A DNA stretch of 64,000 bases, from NCBI RefSeq assembly GCF_000306785.1, contig NC_017955.1, positions 372,001 to 436,000 of the forward strand, written 5' to 3'. The stretch is from Modestobacter italicus. GTDB taxonomy: Bacteria; Actinomycetota; Actinomycetes; Mycobacteriales; Geodermatophilaceae. Positions 38,014 to 44,529 of this stretch are shown piece by piece. The position numbers were made by a program, and so were the translations under genes. Under the pieces are notes generated by a model. It was given only the letters and a program-made list of their open reading frames with translations. It searched no databases and was not told the DNA's origin. The first letter of the stretch is position 1. Each line of letters opens with the position of its first letter.

Positions 38014-38874
38014 ATGGAGCGGCTCGAGACGACGATCGACGTCCAGGGACCCTGGTCGCTGGCCACCAGCCGGCGGTTCTGGGAGGGCTTCGCCCCCTCG
38101 GCGCTCACCTCGCAGGACGGCGAGGCGCGGCTGCGCACGGTCTTCCGGGTCGACCGGGACTGGTCCCGCGCCGAGGTCGAGGTGGCCCAGGACGGCGGTG
38201 CCGCGCAGCTGGTGCTCACCGGCGACGGCGACCCGACCGCGGCGGTCGCCCAGGTCTGCCGCTTCCTCTCCCTCGACGTCGACGCGCGCGGTTGGCCGGA
38301 CGTCGGCCGCCGGGACCCGGTGATCGGCGCGGCCCAGCAGCAGCTGCCCGGGCTGCGGCCCTGCGGCTTCCACTCCCCGTACGAGGCGGCCGCGTGGTCG
38401 GTGCTGTCCCAGCGGGTGCGGATCGTGCAGGCCGCCCAGGTGCGGCAGCAGCTGGTCGACGAGCACGGCGACGACGGCGCGTTCCCGGCGCCGGAGCGGC
38501 TGCGGGCGCTCGAGCTGGACCTGCCCGGACGGAAGGCGGAGTACCTGCACGCGGTCGCCGACGCCGCGCTCGACGGCCGGCTGGACGGTGCGGCGCTGCG
38601 GTCGGTCGACCCGGAGGAGGCGGTGCGGGGCGTGCAGCAGATCACCGGGCTCGGGCCGTTCGCCGCCGACCTCGTCGTCCTCCGCGGTGCCAACGCCCCA
38701 GACGGGCTGCCCCGGCAGGAACGCCGGCTGGAGAGCGAGGTCGCCGAGCGCTACGGGCCAGACGCCGACCTGACCGGGGCGGCGGAGGCCTGGCGGCCCT
38801 TCCGGACCTGGGCCGCCGTGCTGCTCCGCGCGCTGCGGGAGGAGCGCACCCCCGAGATCGGTGGACGGCGCTGA
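38014..38874 (+). CDS. AlkA-like HhH-GPD DNA glycosylase, catalytic Asp apparently absent
   Basis: This 286-residue protein resembles DNA-3-methyladenine glycosylase II. The helix-hairpin-helix I-T-G-L-G-P-F-A-A-D-L-V-V-L-R-G lies near residue 215. In AlkA the catalytic Asp follows about 20 residues later in L-P-D-D-Y; here the aligned segment reads L-P-R-Q-E. By eye the catalytic Asp is replaced, so activity as a standard base-excision glycosylase is doubtful. It has a good ribosome site (GGGGAGGG) and ends 52 bp before fdhA. Confidence 0.78.
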   Translation: MERLETTIDVQGPWSLATSRRFWEGFAPSALTSQDGEARLRTVFRVDRDWSRAEVEVAQDGGAAQLVLTGDGDPTAAVAQVCRFLSLDVDARGWPDVGRRDPVIGAAQQQLPGLRPCGFHSPYEAAAWSVLSQRVRIVQAAQVRQQLVDEHGDDGAFPAPERLRALELDLPGRKAEYLHAVADAALDGRLDGAALRSVDPEEAVRGVQQITGLGPFAADLVVLRGANAPDGLPRQERRLESEVAERYGPDADLTGAAEAWRPFRTWAAVLLRALREERTPEIGGRR

Positions 38875-38926: not shown

Positions 38927-41900
38927 GTGAAGACGTGGCTCGACGCGTGGCCGGTGTTCCGGCAGCTCACCGGCTCTGATCCCCTCGGCCGCGGCGTGGC
39001 CGCGCGCAGCAAGGCCACCGAGCAGGTAGTCAGCCGGACGGCGACGGCCGACCGCGTCGTGACGTCCGTCTGCCCGTACTGCGCGGTCGGCTGCGGTCAG
39101 CGCGTGTTCGTGAAGGACGAGAAGATCGTCCAGATCGAGGGCGACCCCGACTCGCCGATCAGCCGCGGCCGGCTCTGCCCCAAGGGCAGCGCGAGCAAGC
39201 AGCTGGTCACCAGCCCGTCCCGCGTGACCACGGTCAAGTACCGCCGTCCGTACGCGACGGACTGGGAGGACCTGGACCTCGACACGGCGATGGAGATGAT
39301 CGCCGACCGCGTCCTGGACGCCCGGGCGAAGGGCTGGCAGGAGCAGGACGCGGGGCGCCGCGTGAACCGCACCATGGGTGTGGCCAGCCTGGGCGGCGCG
39401 ACGCTGGACAACGAAGAGAACTACCTGATGAAGAAGCTGTACAGCGCCATGGGCGCCATACAGATCGAGAACCAGGCCCGCATATAGCACTCTTCGACGG
39501 TCCCCGGTCTGGGGACCTCGTTCGGCCGTGGTGGCGCGACCAACTTCCAGGAAGACCTGGCGAACTCCGACTGCATCGTCATCGAGGGTTCGAACATGGC
39601 CGAGTGCCACCCGGTGGGCTTCCAGTGGGTGATGGAGGCCAAGGCCCGGGGGGCCAAGGTCATCCACATCGACCCGCGGTTCACCCGGACCAGTGCGGTC
39701 GCGGACCTGCACGTCCCGCTGCGCATCGGCACCGACATCGCCTTCCTCGGCGGCCTGATCAAGTACGTCCTGGACAACGAGCTGTACTTCAAGGAGTACG
39801 TGGTCGCCTACACCAACGCCGCCGCGCTGGTGGGCGAGGACTTCGTCGACGCCGAGGACCTCGGCGGGCTGTTCTCCGGGTTCGACCCCGAGCACGGCCA
39901 GTACGACACCGACAGCTGGAAGTACGAGTTCGCCGAGCCGGAGGAGTCACGCGCCGACGACCCGGCACGGGCCGCCGAGCAGGAGCGGGTCGACGACCAC
40001 CACGACGTCAAGTCCGCGGACAAGGCGCAGTCCCTGGGCAGCGGTGGCGCGCCGATCCCGGGCAAGCCCGTGCGCGACGAGACGCTGCAGCACCCGCGCA
40101 GCGTGTTCCAGGTGCTCAAGCGGCACTTCGCCCGCTACACCCCGGAGATGGTGGCCGAGGTCTGCGGCATCGGGCCGGAGGTCTTCGAGCAGGTCGCGCA
40201 GTGGGTCACCAGCAACAGCAACCGCGAGCGGACGACGGCCTGGGTGTACTCGGTGGGCTGGACGCAGCACAGCGTCGGCGCGCAGTACATCCGCACCTGC
40301 TCGATCCTGCAGACGCTGCTGGGCAACATCGGCCGGCCGGGTGGCGGCATCCTGGCGCTGCGCGGGCACGCCAGCATCCAGGGCTCGACCGACGTCCCGA
40401 CGCTGTACAACCTGCTGCCCGGCTACCTGCCGATGCCGCACTCCGTCCAGCACCAGTCGCTGGACGACTACGTGGCCGACTCGGCCGGCAAGGCCGGCTT
40501 CTGGGGCAACAAGCGGGCGTACACGGTCAGCCTGCTCAAGGCCTGGTTCGGTGACGCGGCCCAGCCGGAGAACGACTTCCGGTTCGACTGGATCCCGAAG
40601 ATCAACGGCGACCACAGCTCCTACCGGACGATCGCGGACATGATCGCCGGGAAGGTGCACGGCTACTTCCTGGTGGGGGAGAACCCCTCGGTCGGCTCGC
40701 CCAACGGCAAGATGAACCGGTTCGGGCTGGCCAACCTGGACTGGCTGGTCGTGCGTGACCTGCAGATGATCGAGTCGGCGACCTTCTGGAAGGAAGGCCC
40801 GGAGATCGAGTCCGGGGAGATGGCGCCGGAGACGATCGCCACCGAGGTCTTCTTCATGCCCGCGGCCACGCACGTGGAGAAGGAGGGCACCTTCACCCAG
40901 ACGCAGCGGCTGCTGCAGTGGCGGCACAAGGCGGTCGAGCCGCCGGCCGACGCCCGCAGCGACCTGTGGTTCTACTTCCACCTGGGCCGCATCCTGCGCC
41001 GGCGCCTCGCCGGGTCCACCGACCCGCGCGACCAGGCGCTGCTCAACCTGACCTGGGACTACCCGACGATCGGGGAGACCGCCGACCCCGACGCCGAGGC
41101 CGTGCTGCGCGAGATCAACGGCGTGGGCCCCGACGGCAGGGCGCTGTCGGGCTACCTCGACCTCAAGGACGACGGGTCGACCACCAGCGGCTGCTGGATC
41201 TACTCCGGCGTCTACGCCGACGAGGTGAACCAGGCCGCGCGGCGGAAGTCGCGCCGCGAGCAGGGCCCGGTGGCGCTGGAGTGGGGCTGGGCCTGGCCGC
41301 TCAACCGCCGCATCCTCTACAACCGCGCCTCCGCCGACCCCGACGGCAAGCCGTGGAGCGAGCGCAAGAAGTACGTGTACTGGGACGAGGAAGCCGGGAG
41401 GTGGACCGGCGACGACGTGCCGGACTTCGAGGCCACCAAGCGCCCGGACTACGTGCCGCCGGAGGGCGCCAAGGCGCAGGCCGCCATCGGCGGGGCCGAC
41501 CCGTTCATCATGCAGATGGACGGCAAGGCCTGGCTGTACGCGCCGTCCGGGCTGGTCGACGGCCCGATGCCGACGCACTACGAGCCGGCCGAGTCGGTCG
41601 TGGAGAACTACCTCTACGACCAGCAGTCCAGCCCGACGATCGAGCGGATCGCCGGGCCGTGGAACCGGGAGAACCCCTCGCTCAGCGAGGTCTTCCCGTT
41701 CCAGGTGACCACCTACCGGCTCACCGAGCACCACACCGCCGGTGGGATGAGCCGCACGCTGCCCTACCTGTCCGAGCTCCAGCCGGAGTTCTTCGTCGAG
41801 GTCAGCCCGGAGCTCGCGCAGCTGCGCGGCCTGGCCAACGGCGAGTTCGCCACCCTGGTCAGCGCCCGGACGGCGATCGAGGCGAAGGTGCTGGTCACCG

Positions 41901-42220
41901 AGCGGATCCGGCCGGTCAAGCTGCGCGGCGGGCAGGTCGTGCACCAGATCGGCATGCCCTACCACTGGTCCTACGCGGGGCTGTCGACCGGCGACAACGC
42001 CAACGACCTGCTGGGCATCGTGCTGGACGCGAACACCCACATCCAGGAGGACAAGGTCAGCACCGCCGACATCGTGCCCGGACGCCGTCCGCGCGGGCCG
42101 GAGCTGCTGGAGTTCGTCGAGTCCTACCGCCGCCGCGCGGGGGTCGAGTCGGGTCGGGTCGGCGTGAACGGCCGGGCACCGGACGAGGACCCCAGCGCGA
42201 TGGAAGAGGCCGGCGCGTGA
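38927..42220 (+). CDS. fdhA: Formate dehydrogenase alpha subunit, selenocysteine encoded by UAG
   Basis: This molybdopterin/[4Fe-4S] catalytic subunit of about 1097 residues oxidises formate to CO2. The cluster ligands are C49-P-Y-C52-x3-C56 and C84-P-K-G. The frame is interrupted by a single TAG at 39485-39487 (residue 187) and is otherwise open. The flanks N-Q-A-R-I-[TAG]-H-S-S-T-V and F-G-R-G align with E. coli FdnG, where selenocysteine 196 is followed by His. A SECIS-like hairpin follows (39499-39517). So TAG is most likely read as selenocysteine. No twin-arginine signal is seen. The GTG at 38927 begins the conserved part. The beta and NrfD-like genes follow. Confidence 0.93.
39485..39517 (+). 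promoter_or_regulatory. UAG selenocysteine codon with SECIS-like hairpin
   Basis: TAG at 39485-39487 is followed after 11 bases by the stem GGTCCCC (39499-39505), loop GGTCT (39506-39510) and GGGGACC (39511-39517). From memory, E. coli fdhF has the same 11-base offset and the same apical GGTCU after UGA. CGA (39495-39497) and TCG (39518-39520) can extend the stem with one bulged C. SelB recognises such a loop in bacterial selenoprotein mRNAs. Confidence 0.9.
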
Positions 42221-42246
42221 CCAACGACGAGCGGGGAACGCGATGA
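42217..42246 (+). CDS. 9-codon mini-ORF bridging fdhA and fdhB
   Basis: GTG at 42217 overlaps the fdhA stop (GTGA) and its TGA at 42244-42246 overlaps the fdhB ATG (ATGA). The peptide would be V-T-N-D-E-R-G-T-R. It may exist only to pass terminating ribosomes to fdhB; GCGGGG inside it could serve fdhB directly. Confidence 0.4.
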   Translation: MTNDERGTR

Positions 42247-43316
42247 CCACCGTCAGCTCGGCCAGCCCGGGCCTGAGCAAGGACACCCGGGCCGTCAGCG
42301 GCAACCGGCTCTACGGGCCGCTGCCCGACGTGCAGGGCGAGGCGGGGTACGAGCCCGACCACCCCGCGCGGGTCGGGTTCTTCACCGACACGTCGGTCTG
42401 CATCGGCTGCAAGGCCTGCGAGGTCGCCTGCAAGGAGTGGAACACGCTCCCGATGGACGACTCGCACGGCACGAAGGACGTCATGGGGCTGTCCGGGATG
42501 TCCTACGACAACACCGGCCAGCTGGGTGCCAACTCGTGGCGGCACGTGGCGTTCATCGAGCAGAGCCGCGCGGTGGACCTGCCGATGCCGACGTTCGGCC
42601 GGCCCGGCGACGACCGGCAGGACGCCGGGCAGCCGGTCAACCCGATCAGCCCGCAGGCCGACAGCACGCTGAACGCGCAGACCAGCGTGCTCAACGCCGA
42701 GTCGCTCACCCAGTTCGACCCGCAGACCGGGCAGAGCGGCAGCGACAAGCAGATCCGCTGGCTGATGTCCTCCGACGTCTGCAAGCACTGCACGCACGCC
42801 GGCTGCCTGGACGTCTGCCCGACCGGTGCGCTGTTCCGCACCGAGTTCGGCACGGTCGTCGTCCAGGGCGACATCTGCAACGGCTGCGGCTACTGCGTGC
42901 CCGCCTGCCCCTACGGCGTCATCGACAAGCGCGAGGACGACGGCCGGGTCTTCAAGTGCACGATGTGCTACGACCGGCTGACCGACGGGCTGCAGCCGGC
43001 CTGCGCGACCGCCTGCCCGACCCAGTCGATCCAGTTCGGCGACCTCGACGAGCTGCAGGCCCGGGCCGACGCCCGGCTCGCGACGCTGAAGGGCCAGGGC
43101 GTGGAGACGGCGCGGCTCTACGGCCGGGACGAGGCCGACGGCGTCGGTGGCGTCGGCGCCTTCTTCCTGCTGCTCGACGAGCCGGAGGTCTACGGCTTCC
43201 CGCCGGACCCGATCGTCACCACCCGCGACCTGCCCTCGATGTGGAAGGCCGCCGCCACCGGCGCGGCGATGATCGTCGGCGTCGTGGCCTCGGCCTTCGT
43301 CGGACGCAGGCGATGA
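42243..43316 (+). CDS. fdhB: Formate dehydrogenase beta (iron-sulfur) subunit
   Basis: This 357-residue electron-transfer subunit has four [4Fe-4S] Cys groups: C-I-G-C-K-A-C-E-V-A-C, C-K-H-C-T-H-A-G-C-L-D-V-C, C-N-G-C-G-Y-C-V-P-A-C and C-T-M-C...C-A-T-A-C. A single C-terminal hydrophobic helix (about residues 333-350) anchors it to the membrane, as in FdnH. It passes electrons from FdhA to the NrfD-like subunit. An insertion of about 60 polar residues separates the first and second Cys groups. Confidence 0.93.
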   Translation: MTTVSSASPGLSKDTRAVSGNRLYGPLPDVQGEAGYEPDHPARVGFFTDTSVCIGCKACEVACKEWNTLPMDDSHGTKDVMGLSGMSYDNTGQLGANSWRHVAFIEQSRAVDLPMPTFGRPGDDRQDAGQPVNPISPQADSTLNAQTSVLNAESLTQFDPQTGQSGSDKQIRWLMSSDVCKHCTHAGCLDVCPTGALFRTEFGTVVVQGDICNGCGYCVPACPYGVIDKREDDGRVFKCTMCYDRLTDGLQPACATACPTQSIQFGDLDELQARADARLATLKGQGVETARLYGRDEADGVGGVGAFFLLLDEPEVYGFPPDPIVTTRDLPSMWKAAATGAAMIVGVVASAFVGRRR

Positions 43317-43357
43317 GGGCCATGTCGGCCATGTCGGCCCTGGGGGTGACGGCGTGA
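43313..43357 (+). CDS. 14-codon mini-ORF bridging fdhB and the NrfD-like gene
   Basis: ATG 43313 overlaps the fdhB stop (ATGA) and its TGA overlaps the next GTG start (GTGA at 43354-43357). The peptide is M-R-A-M-S-A-M-S-A-L-G-V-T-A. It fills a gap that would otherwise uncouple the two genes, so it probably works as a reinitiation relay. Confidence 0.45.
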   Translation: MRAMSAMSALGVTA

Positions 43358-44529
43358 GCGAGCAGCCGAAGACCGGGAACGAGCCGGCCGGTGAGGCGCC
43401 GCTGACGCCGGGTGCCGGCTGGCACCGGGCCGGTGGGGAGGACCTCACCCGGCCGCGGCGCAAGCGCCGCCGCGGTGGTGGCGGGGGCTGGGGGAGCGGC
43501 AACCGCGAGGCGGCCATGGTCCCGGACGCGGAGTTCAGCTCGTACTACGGCCGGCAGATCATTAAGTCGCCGACCTGGAAGAACCCCGAGGTCCCGGTCT
43601 ACTTCTTCCTGGGCGGGGCGGCGGGCACCTCGTCGGTGATCGCGGCGCTGGCCGAGTTCACCGGCCGCCCGAAGCTGGCCCGCAACGCCGAGTACGCGGC
43701 TGGGGTCGGCGCGCTCGCGTCGGTCGTGCTGCTGATCGACGACCTGGGCCGGCCGGAGCGGTTCCTGCACATGCTGCGGGTGTTCAAGCCGACCTCACCG
43801 CTGTCGGTGGGCTCCTACATCCTGTCGCCGTTCAGCGCGCTGGCCTCGGCGGCGGCCGCGGTGCGGTTGCTGGACCTCAAGCCGGTCTACGGCCTGGGCA
43901 CGAAGGTGCTGCCGTTCCTGCCGTCGATCGCCGGTGCGTTCCCGGTGCTGCGCAAGGGTGCGGCGGTCGGTGCGGCCGCGTTCGGCGGGCCGATGGCGAC
44001 CTACACCGCGGTGCTGATCGCCAACACCGCCGTCCCGTCGTGGCACGCGCCGCACGACGAGCTGCCGTTCGTGTTCGCCGGGTCGGCGATGGCCGCCGGC
44101 GGCGGCATCACGATGGCGCTGACCCCGGTCGACGAGGCCGGGCCGTCGCGCAAGGTGGCGCTGACCGGCGTGGCCGTGGAGCTCGCGGCGATGCACCGGG
44201 TCGAGCACGGGCACGGCATCGTCAGCGAGCCCTACCACCTCGGCAAGGCCGGGAAGCTGCTGCGCGCGGCCAAGGCGGCGACCGTGAGCGGCGCCGGCAT
44301 CACCGCGCTGCTCGGCCGCACCCGGCCCGGCTCGGTGGTCGGCGGCGTGCTGCTGGCCGCCGGTTCGCTGCTGACCCGGATGGGCGTCTTCGAGGCCGGC
44401 ATGCAGAGCGCCAAGGACCCGAAGTACACCGTCATCCCGCAGCGCGAACGGCTCGAGGCCCGTCAGGCCGAGGCCGCCGCCCGGGCCGGCACCGACGACC
44501 CGCACGAGGCCAGGTCCGTCGTCCGCTGA
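43354..44529 (+). CDS. NrfD/PsrC-like membrane subunit of formate dehydrogenase
   Basis: This 391-residue integral membrane protein has about eight to nine hydrophobic segments (from residue 80) preceded by a basic cytoplasmic N-terminus. It fits the NrfD family, which replaces cytochrome-b-type gamma subunits and delivers electrons to the quinone pool. Menaquinone is the expected acceptor, and menB is present at 15665. GTG 43354 lies in an overlap with the mini-ORF. It closes the operon before a strong hairpin. Confidence 0.87.
   Translation: MSEQPKTGNEPAGEAPLTPGAGWHRAGGEDLTRPRRKRRRGGGGGWGSGNREAAMVPDAEFSSYYGRQIIKSPTWKNPEVPVYFFLGGAAGTSSVIAALAEFTGRPKLARNAEYAAGVGALASVVLLIDDLGRPERFLHMLRVFKPTSPLSVGSYILSPFSALASAAAAVRLLDLKPVYGLGTKVLPFLPSIAGAFPVLRKGAAVGAAAFGGPMATYTAVLIANTAVPSWHAPHDELPFVFAGSAMAAGGGITMALTPVDEAGPSRKVALTGVAVELAAMHRVEHGHGIVSEPYHLGKAGKLLRAAKAATVSGAGITALLGRTRPGSVVGGVLLAAGSLLTRMGVFEAGMQSAKDPKYTVIPQRERLEARQAEAAARAGTDDPHEARSVVR

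Follow-up and report, generated by a model that had tools for sequence, protein, structure and literature searches.

A UAG codon at the selenocysteine site of formate dehydrogenase in Modestobacter italicus and its history within the Geodermatophilaceae

The fdhA locus and a second gene with an in-frame UAG

The window, by which we mean the whole stretch of 64,000 nucleotides of Modestobacter italicus DNA that was analysed, contains a gene for the alpha subunit of formate dehydrogenase (fdhA), followed by fdhB and by a gene for an NrfD-type membrane protein that is the probable membrane anchor of the enzyme (Table 1); the last had no NCBIfam match. Translation of the fdhA frame met exactly two stops, the TAG at codon 187 and the terminal TGA, in agreement with the sequence-only reading, which had described the frame as open save for that one TAG and had its coordinates right. 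The position of the GTG start is uncertain; the frame given by the ORF finder begins at a GTG at 38861. FdhA scored 1906 bits against NF041513 (formate_DH_Act; cut-off 1400) and 953.9 bits against TIGR01553, contains the Pfam domains PF04879, PF00384 and PF01568, and is a formate dehydrogenase (FDH) alpha subunit by its family profile, its cofactor domains and its selenocysteine (Sec)/Cys position. In phmmer alignments with two solved structures, 1h0h_A and 1kqf_A (the latter E. coli FdnG), residue 187 stood opposite an X inside 'QAR-X-H', which we take to be Sec in both. The earlier match of the flanks to the Sec site of FdnG was thus reproduced, and the in-frame TAG at the Sec site of fdhA is, as far as sequence can tell, confirmed as a genuine observation.

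Table 1. Features in the window and elsewhere in the host genome
Feature	Position	Strand	Evidence
fdhA, formate dehydrogenase alpha subunit	38927..42220	+	1097 aa with UAG read through; NF041513, TIGR01553, Pfam
TAG, selenocysteine codon 187 of fdhA	39485..39487	+	translation, alignment, family conservation
Bacterial SECIS-type hairpin, 7-bp stem and GGUCU loop, 11 nt past the codon	39499..39517	+	sequence, RNA fold, covariation
fdhB, iron-sulfur (beta) subunit, next downstream	42243..43316	+	TIGR01582 FDH-beta 173.8 bits (below cut-off 334.7); Fer4 domains
NrfD-type membrane protein, probable FDH membrane anchor	43354..44529	+	PF03916 55 bits, PF14589 38.5 bits
selD	L014:8414-9421	reverse	377.1 bits, above cut-off
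tRNA-Sec gene (selC)	C1:1725480-1725571; by ARAGORN L014:9481-9574		RF01852 65.8 bits (gathering score 47)
selA	L014:9639-10949		412.8 bits, above cut-off
selB	L014:10946-12685		279.4 bits, above cut-off; C-terminal PF09107 SelB-wing_3
UGSC-family gene, one TAG within the domain	C1:4142702-4143208; TAG at G000:C1:4142972		NF041046 131.7 bits (cut-off 125); PF24696 177 bits

The hairpin after the codon consists of GGTCCCC (39499-39505), the apical loop GGTCT (39506-39510) and GGGGACC (39511-39517), and its seven perfect pairs, 11 bases after the TAG, were as previously described. Its predicted fold had a free energy of -17.4 kcal/mol (z -2.46), equalled in stability by 5 of 200 shuffles. Rfam SECIS_3 overlaps the hairpin at 26.7 bits (gathering score 63); although the score falls below that threshold, the element lies just downstream of the Sec codon, as SelB-dependent insertion calls for.

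The host genome holds a second gene of this kind, in the UGSC family, where the TAG falls on the U of 'VGD-U-GSC'; two further UGSC paralogues of the host carry TGC at that site and read 'VGDCGSC' (CGSC). UAG stands at known Sec sites of both FDH and UGSC, as in the UAG-Sec variant code of the Geodermatophilaceae. The two kinds of site share one geometry: the codon, 11 nt, a 7-bp stem and a 5-nt loop, (G/A)GU(C/G)U. When 28 distinct UAG sites from FdhA and UGSC genes were aligned, 97.4% of the alignment cells of the stem were paired and two-sided (compensatory) changes occurred in all seven pairs. The covariation score was 0.68, as against 0.21 in shuffles (none of 500 as high) and no higher than 0.15 in slid versions, a score into which coding constraint is mixed because two protein families were aligned by position. 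In the host's own UGSC site, five of the seven stem positions were paired when counted by eye, and the fold of that single sequence was no better than shuffles (z -0.29).

The true UGSC gene, whose serine codon is AGC, was recovered by the Pfam profile. A search of the genome with the pattern TAGGGNTCNTGY...GGTC gave two other matches, and by eye the surrounding frames contained no UGSC protein. In the locus L204, a UAG-containing UGSC gene (L204:1486-2022) is overlapped by the start of an open frame of 361 aa (L204:2019-3104), which had no Pfam match and is a possible partner of it.

Further UAG-Sec genes were sought in the host genome with a covariance model built from 29 sites (E<=10; 150 of 14,135 first-look candidates scored). 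The two best of 27 matches were the fdhA and UGSC genes, both of them among the training sites of the model, and no convincing third site was seen among the 11 inspected of the other 25. One match was the natural TAG stop of a probable ribosomal protein gene, which we take to be L31 by name, followed by a hairpin. For AhpC, none of 11 AhpC-TSA matches in the host genome had an internal stop.

Selenocysteine genes and stop-codon use in the host

The host genome (5,575,517 bases, one contig) carries the genes for Sec synthesis and insertion in the order selD-selC-selA-selB, with the tRNA-Sec gene placed between selD and selA. This gene is 92 nt long and has the anticodon CTA (CUA); ARAGORN labels it 'tRNA-Pyl'. 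The other four matches to RF01852 in the genome were assigned by ARAGORN to tRNA-Ser (three) and tRNA-Leu (one), and no UCA tRNA-Sec was seen in that search, which scored 150 of the 1364 first-look candidates. The genome-wide check proposed by the sequence-only reading thus yielded selA, selB and selD together with a tRNA-Sec of the anticodon it had foreseen; the case that it had named as contrary, a genome with only a UCA tRNA-Sec or with no Sec machinery, was not encountered, the only tRNA-Sec found being CUA.

UAG is also used as a stop. The gene for release factor 1 (prfA, RF1) is present (476 bits) with the GGQ motif and a PVT motif that is presumably the stop-reading motif of RF1. In a sample of 464 kb of host genome, made up of the window and 20 further stretches and passed through a simple ORF filter, 261 ORFs were kept, of which 229 end in TGA, 32 in TAG and none in TAA; UAG thus ends about 12% and UGA about 88% of sampled ORFs in a genome of 74% G+C. 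One of the 32 TAG-ending ORFs is possibly the 5' fragment of fdhA, which passes the filter. Since UAG closes a fraction of this size and RF1 is present, recoding must depend on context, and that context is most likely the hairpin. The earlier interpretation, that the host has recoded selenocysteine to UAG, is supported by the CUA tRNA-Sec and the sel genes, but only as a context-dependent recoding: with RF1 kept and UAG at these ORF ends, the codon has not been wholly reassigned.

Codons, anticodons and the reading of codon 187 across the family

Similarity of fdhA places the host in the Geodermatophilaceae; among the matches listed, the nearest named relatives were Modestobacter excelsi (94%) and M. 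altitudinis (93%). The Sec site of the best 80 named fdhA relatives holds TAG in 37, TGA in 43 and a Cys codon in none. The 37 with TAG comprise 36 Geodermatophilaceae and one 'Frankiales' MAG; the 43 with TGA comprise 40 in other families and three without an assigned family.

Within the family, fdhA (E<=1e-200) was found in 100 of 112 genomes, in 120 matches. Residue 187 is spanned by 113 of these, from 96 genomes, and every one contains one TAG in a tally whose rows were copied by hand; of 50 loci that were fetched, 49 gave TAG as the reading of codon 187 itself, and the unread one is, by elimination, L192 (G080:C12), where fdhA looks broken, with several stops and poor alignment around the Sec site. 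The fdhA at G105:C5:79834-83205 also looks broken and gave a two-piece match around a break near residue 339. Twelve of the 113 matches were tallied with one TGA as well as one TAG, which could suggest a second, UGA-encoded Sec. In all 12 the TAG was read at residue 187; in 11 no TGA occurred before the end of the local alignment (query residues 1087-1092), and in one it was at 1089, so that the TGA is most simply the normal C-terminal stop. UGSC domains gave 95 family matches by hand count, with one TAG in 72, no stop in 23 and TGA in none; in all 19 of the TAG loci that were inspected, L236 among them, the TAG was at the motif's U.

Anticodons were taken from ARAGORN on fetched tRNA-Sec genes, with only SeC or Pyl calls kept. 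They were CUA only in 100 of the 112 genomes, CUA with a second UCA gene in one (G059) and UCA only in seven; the four genomes in which none was found are assemblies 72-82% complete. No UUA or CCA anticodon occurred among the 110 family tRNA-Sec genes. The pair that closes the anticodon loop, 31:39 in our own numbering, is C-G in all 102 CUA genes and U-A in all eight UCA genes. This pair may have been tuned to the new codon; it proves nothing alone, because the change looks like a single evolutionary event within the family. The second tRNA-Sec of G059 (L160, G059:C17, 1169-1263, minus strand) was the top score of the family search (81.8 bits). Dual decoding in that genome was considered and rejected, its FDH and UGSC sites holding TAG; by eye, the frames neighbouring the UCA gene look like transposases, and there was no match to selA, selB or selD in the 20 kb fetched around it.

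With codon, anticodon and hairpin thus matched, we consider it almost certain that codon 187 of fdhA would be translated as Sec by means of tRNA-Sec(CUA), SelA, SelD, and SelB with the hairpin, and that RF1 would act at UAG elsewhere. The proposed mechanism is as follows. SerRS would load tRNA-Sec(CUA) with serine, which SelA would turn into Sec on the tRNA using selenophosphate from SelD. SelB would then bring the Sec-tRNA to the ribosome and bind the hairpin 11 nt past the UAG, so that only hairpin-bearing UAG codons would be recoded; at UAG codons without such a hairpin, RF1 would terminate translation. For this organism, Sec incorporation, binding of the hairpin by SelB and the way in which competition with RF1 is settled are inferred. 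Because RF1 must also compete at codon 187, some product would be expected to end at residue 186. We speculate that UAG was chosen since RF2 may compete harder than RF1 where UGA ends about 88% of ORFs; this could not be the whole reason, because the actinobacteria examined outside the family keep UGA for Sec.

A different outcome of the same apparatus would be read-through of codon 187 mostly as serine or cysteine, through Ser-tRNA-Sec that escapes SelA or through a shortage of selenium. The tRNA-Sec is indeed first charged with serine, according to the portion of PMC10778597 available to us, and Cys-containing UGSC paralogues exist in the same genome; the retention of a complete selA/selD/selB set, however, and the occurrence of TAG or TGA and never a Cys codon in the best 80 named fdhA relatives make this outcome very unlikely. 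That fdhA is simply a broken gene, its TAG due to nonsense mutation or to faulty sequencing, would accord with a frame interrupted under the standard code, but the recurrence of TAG across the family and in the named relatives, the conserved hairpin and the tRNA-Sec with the matching anticodon in effect refute it. Pyrrolysine at UAG is no more credible: ARAGORN's 'tRNA-Pyl' label is its one attraction, and against it the gene has the length, covariance score and chromosomal neighbours of a tRNA-Sec, UCA members of the same tRNA family are called tRNA-SeC by ARAGORN, and codon 187 is the Sec site of FDH.

History of the codon change and relation to known systems

The seven UCA-only genomes belong to the genera g6-g8; all are fragmented assemblies, probably derived from metagenomes. 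No fdhA match at E<=1e-200 was found in them. A different FDH, whose Sec site holds TGA and is followed in the same register by a GGTCT loop, was found in G071 (g7; L375) and in G072-G075 (g8; L245-L248), so that the site readings cover g7 and g8, with none from g6. Four of these genomes (G071, G073, G074 and G075) have tRNA-Sec(UCA); in G072 no tRNA-Sec was found. An unrooted SelA tree (26 rows from 27 matches in 33 loci, one short row having been dropped) separated four UCA rows, from g7 and g8, from 22 CUA rows by a branch with support of 100/100. The presence of TGA in relatives outside the family suggests that UCA is the older state, and the switch of codon and anticodon would then be placed within the Geodermatophilaceae. 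A fragment of the closer fdhA type was also seen in a UCA genome (L244/L253, G071:C162:5050-5565); its TAG is at residue 51, which is not the Sec site, and it may represent a copy in decay or a contig that strayed into the assembly.

Several family genomes carry extra, more distant copies of fdhA (L193-L199, 61-68% identity), and these also have TAG. A FastTree phylogeny was built from 78 rows (35 TAG, 43 TGA), drawn from the fetched loci: 9 of the 30 main family loci, 19 of the 20 further ones and 50 named relatives. L192, which is broken, and L054, a partial TAG row, were left out. On this tree the Sec codon requires five changes, four of them forced by well-supported branches. A quick IQ-TREE search of 48 of the 78 rows, with SH-aLRT as its only support measure (85 for the placement of L198), gave the same counts (five; four forced), and a single TAG clade cost 490 log-likelihood units and was rejected (AU p = 0.00027). 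The extra TAG copies cluster with TGA genes from Micromonosporaceae, from Streptomycetaceae and Thermomonosporaceae, and from a Kineosporiaceae MAG together with an unassigned actinobacterium. The genomes that hold them have the CUA anticodon except G097, where no tRNA-Sec was found and the one listed match fetched was a tRNA-Ser.

Counts of changes alone do not show whether TAG was gained or TGA regained, but gain of TAG is the simpler account, TAG being confined to family rows and one MAG without an assigned family. Most simply, TGA would have been converted repeatedly to TAG, each time by two base changes, to match the tRNA. The extra copies may be foreign fdhA genes converted after arrival or old paralogues converted at the switch; the tree fits both, and since both routes need repeated changes towards UAG, they offer good evidence that the cell reads this codon. 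Overall, we lean towards a single flip of UCA to CUA within the family, with all readable fdhA genes in CUA genomes converted to match and foreign or paralogous selenoprotein genes domesticated by codon rewriting. If true, this would be a natural experiment on a recoded lineage that stays open to gene transfer.

Agreement between the anticodon and the readable Sec codons across the family makes this a natural example, and a clean one, of a switch in Sec codon, and because relatives that use UGA exist both inside and just outside the family, the route and the cost of the switch become testable. The case is also a warning for annotation: the standard code cuts such selenoproteins at UAG, and ARAGORN's pyrrolysine label may mislead.

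In kind, UAG-Sec in the Geodermatophilaceae is already known, and its novelty is low because it has been published: in the part of the text available to us, Santesmasses et al. (2017; PMC5330540) list a CUA tRNA-Sec in three genomes of the family, with FDH, UGSC and AhpC Sec genes, and credit an earlier original report, their reference 56. The survey named in the sequence-only reading, of a UAG-reading tRNA-Sec in this family, was thus right in substance as far as that part of PMC5330540 goes. Use of UAG for Sec by some bacteria is also stated in the available portion of PMC8124441. A literature search that covered few subscription journals found no paper on Modestobacter and selenocysteine. 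The original report credited as reference 56 is presumably that of Mukai in 2016, which reportedly used labelling or mass spectrometry to demonstrate Sec at UAG in Geodermatophilus and Blastococcus. Two points appear to be additions to the published account, to the extent that it was available to us: that the switch lies inside the family, and that fdhA was converted repeatedly.

The host system resembles that account in its family, its CUA tRNA-Sec and its UAG at the FDH and UGSC Sec sites, and differs from the set listed in the accessible part of PMC5330540 in that AhpC-Sec was not found in this genome. With the canonical UGA/SECIS/SelB system of other Actinomycetota it shares the FDH site and a hairpin in the same register, and with UCA members of its own family the same sel genes; unlike the canonical system, it has UAG in place of UGA, CUA in place of UCA and C-G in place of U-A at pair 31:39. 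A dedicated CUA tRNA that reads UAG is a likeness to pyrrolysine, from which the tRNA-Sec structure, the adjoining Sec genes and the hairpin at the site set it apart. The closest engineered parallel is in E. coli, where, by the portion of PMC3834832 available to us, Sec-TrxR1 was made from UAG with tRNA-Sec(CUA) and a SECIS element at a yield similar to that of UGA/UCA. Both systems would insert Sec at UAG in dependence on SelB and SECIS and in competition with RF1; unlike the engineered one, that of the host is natural and fixed in its lineage.
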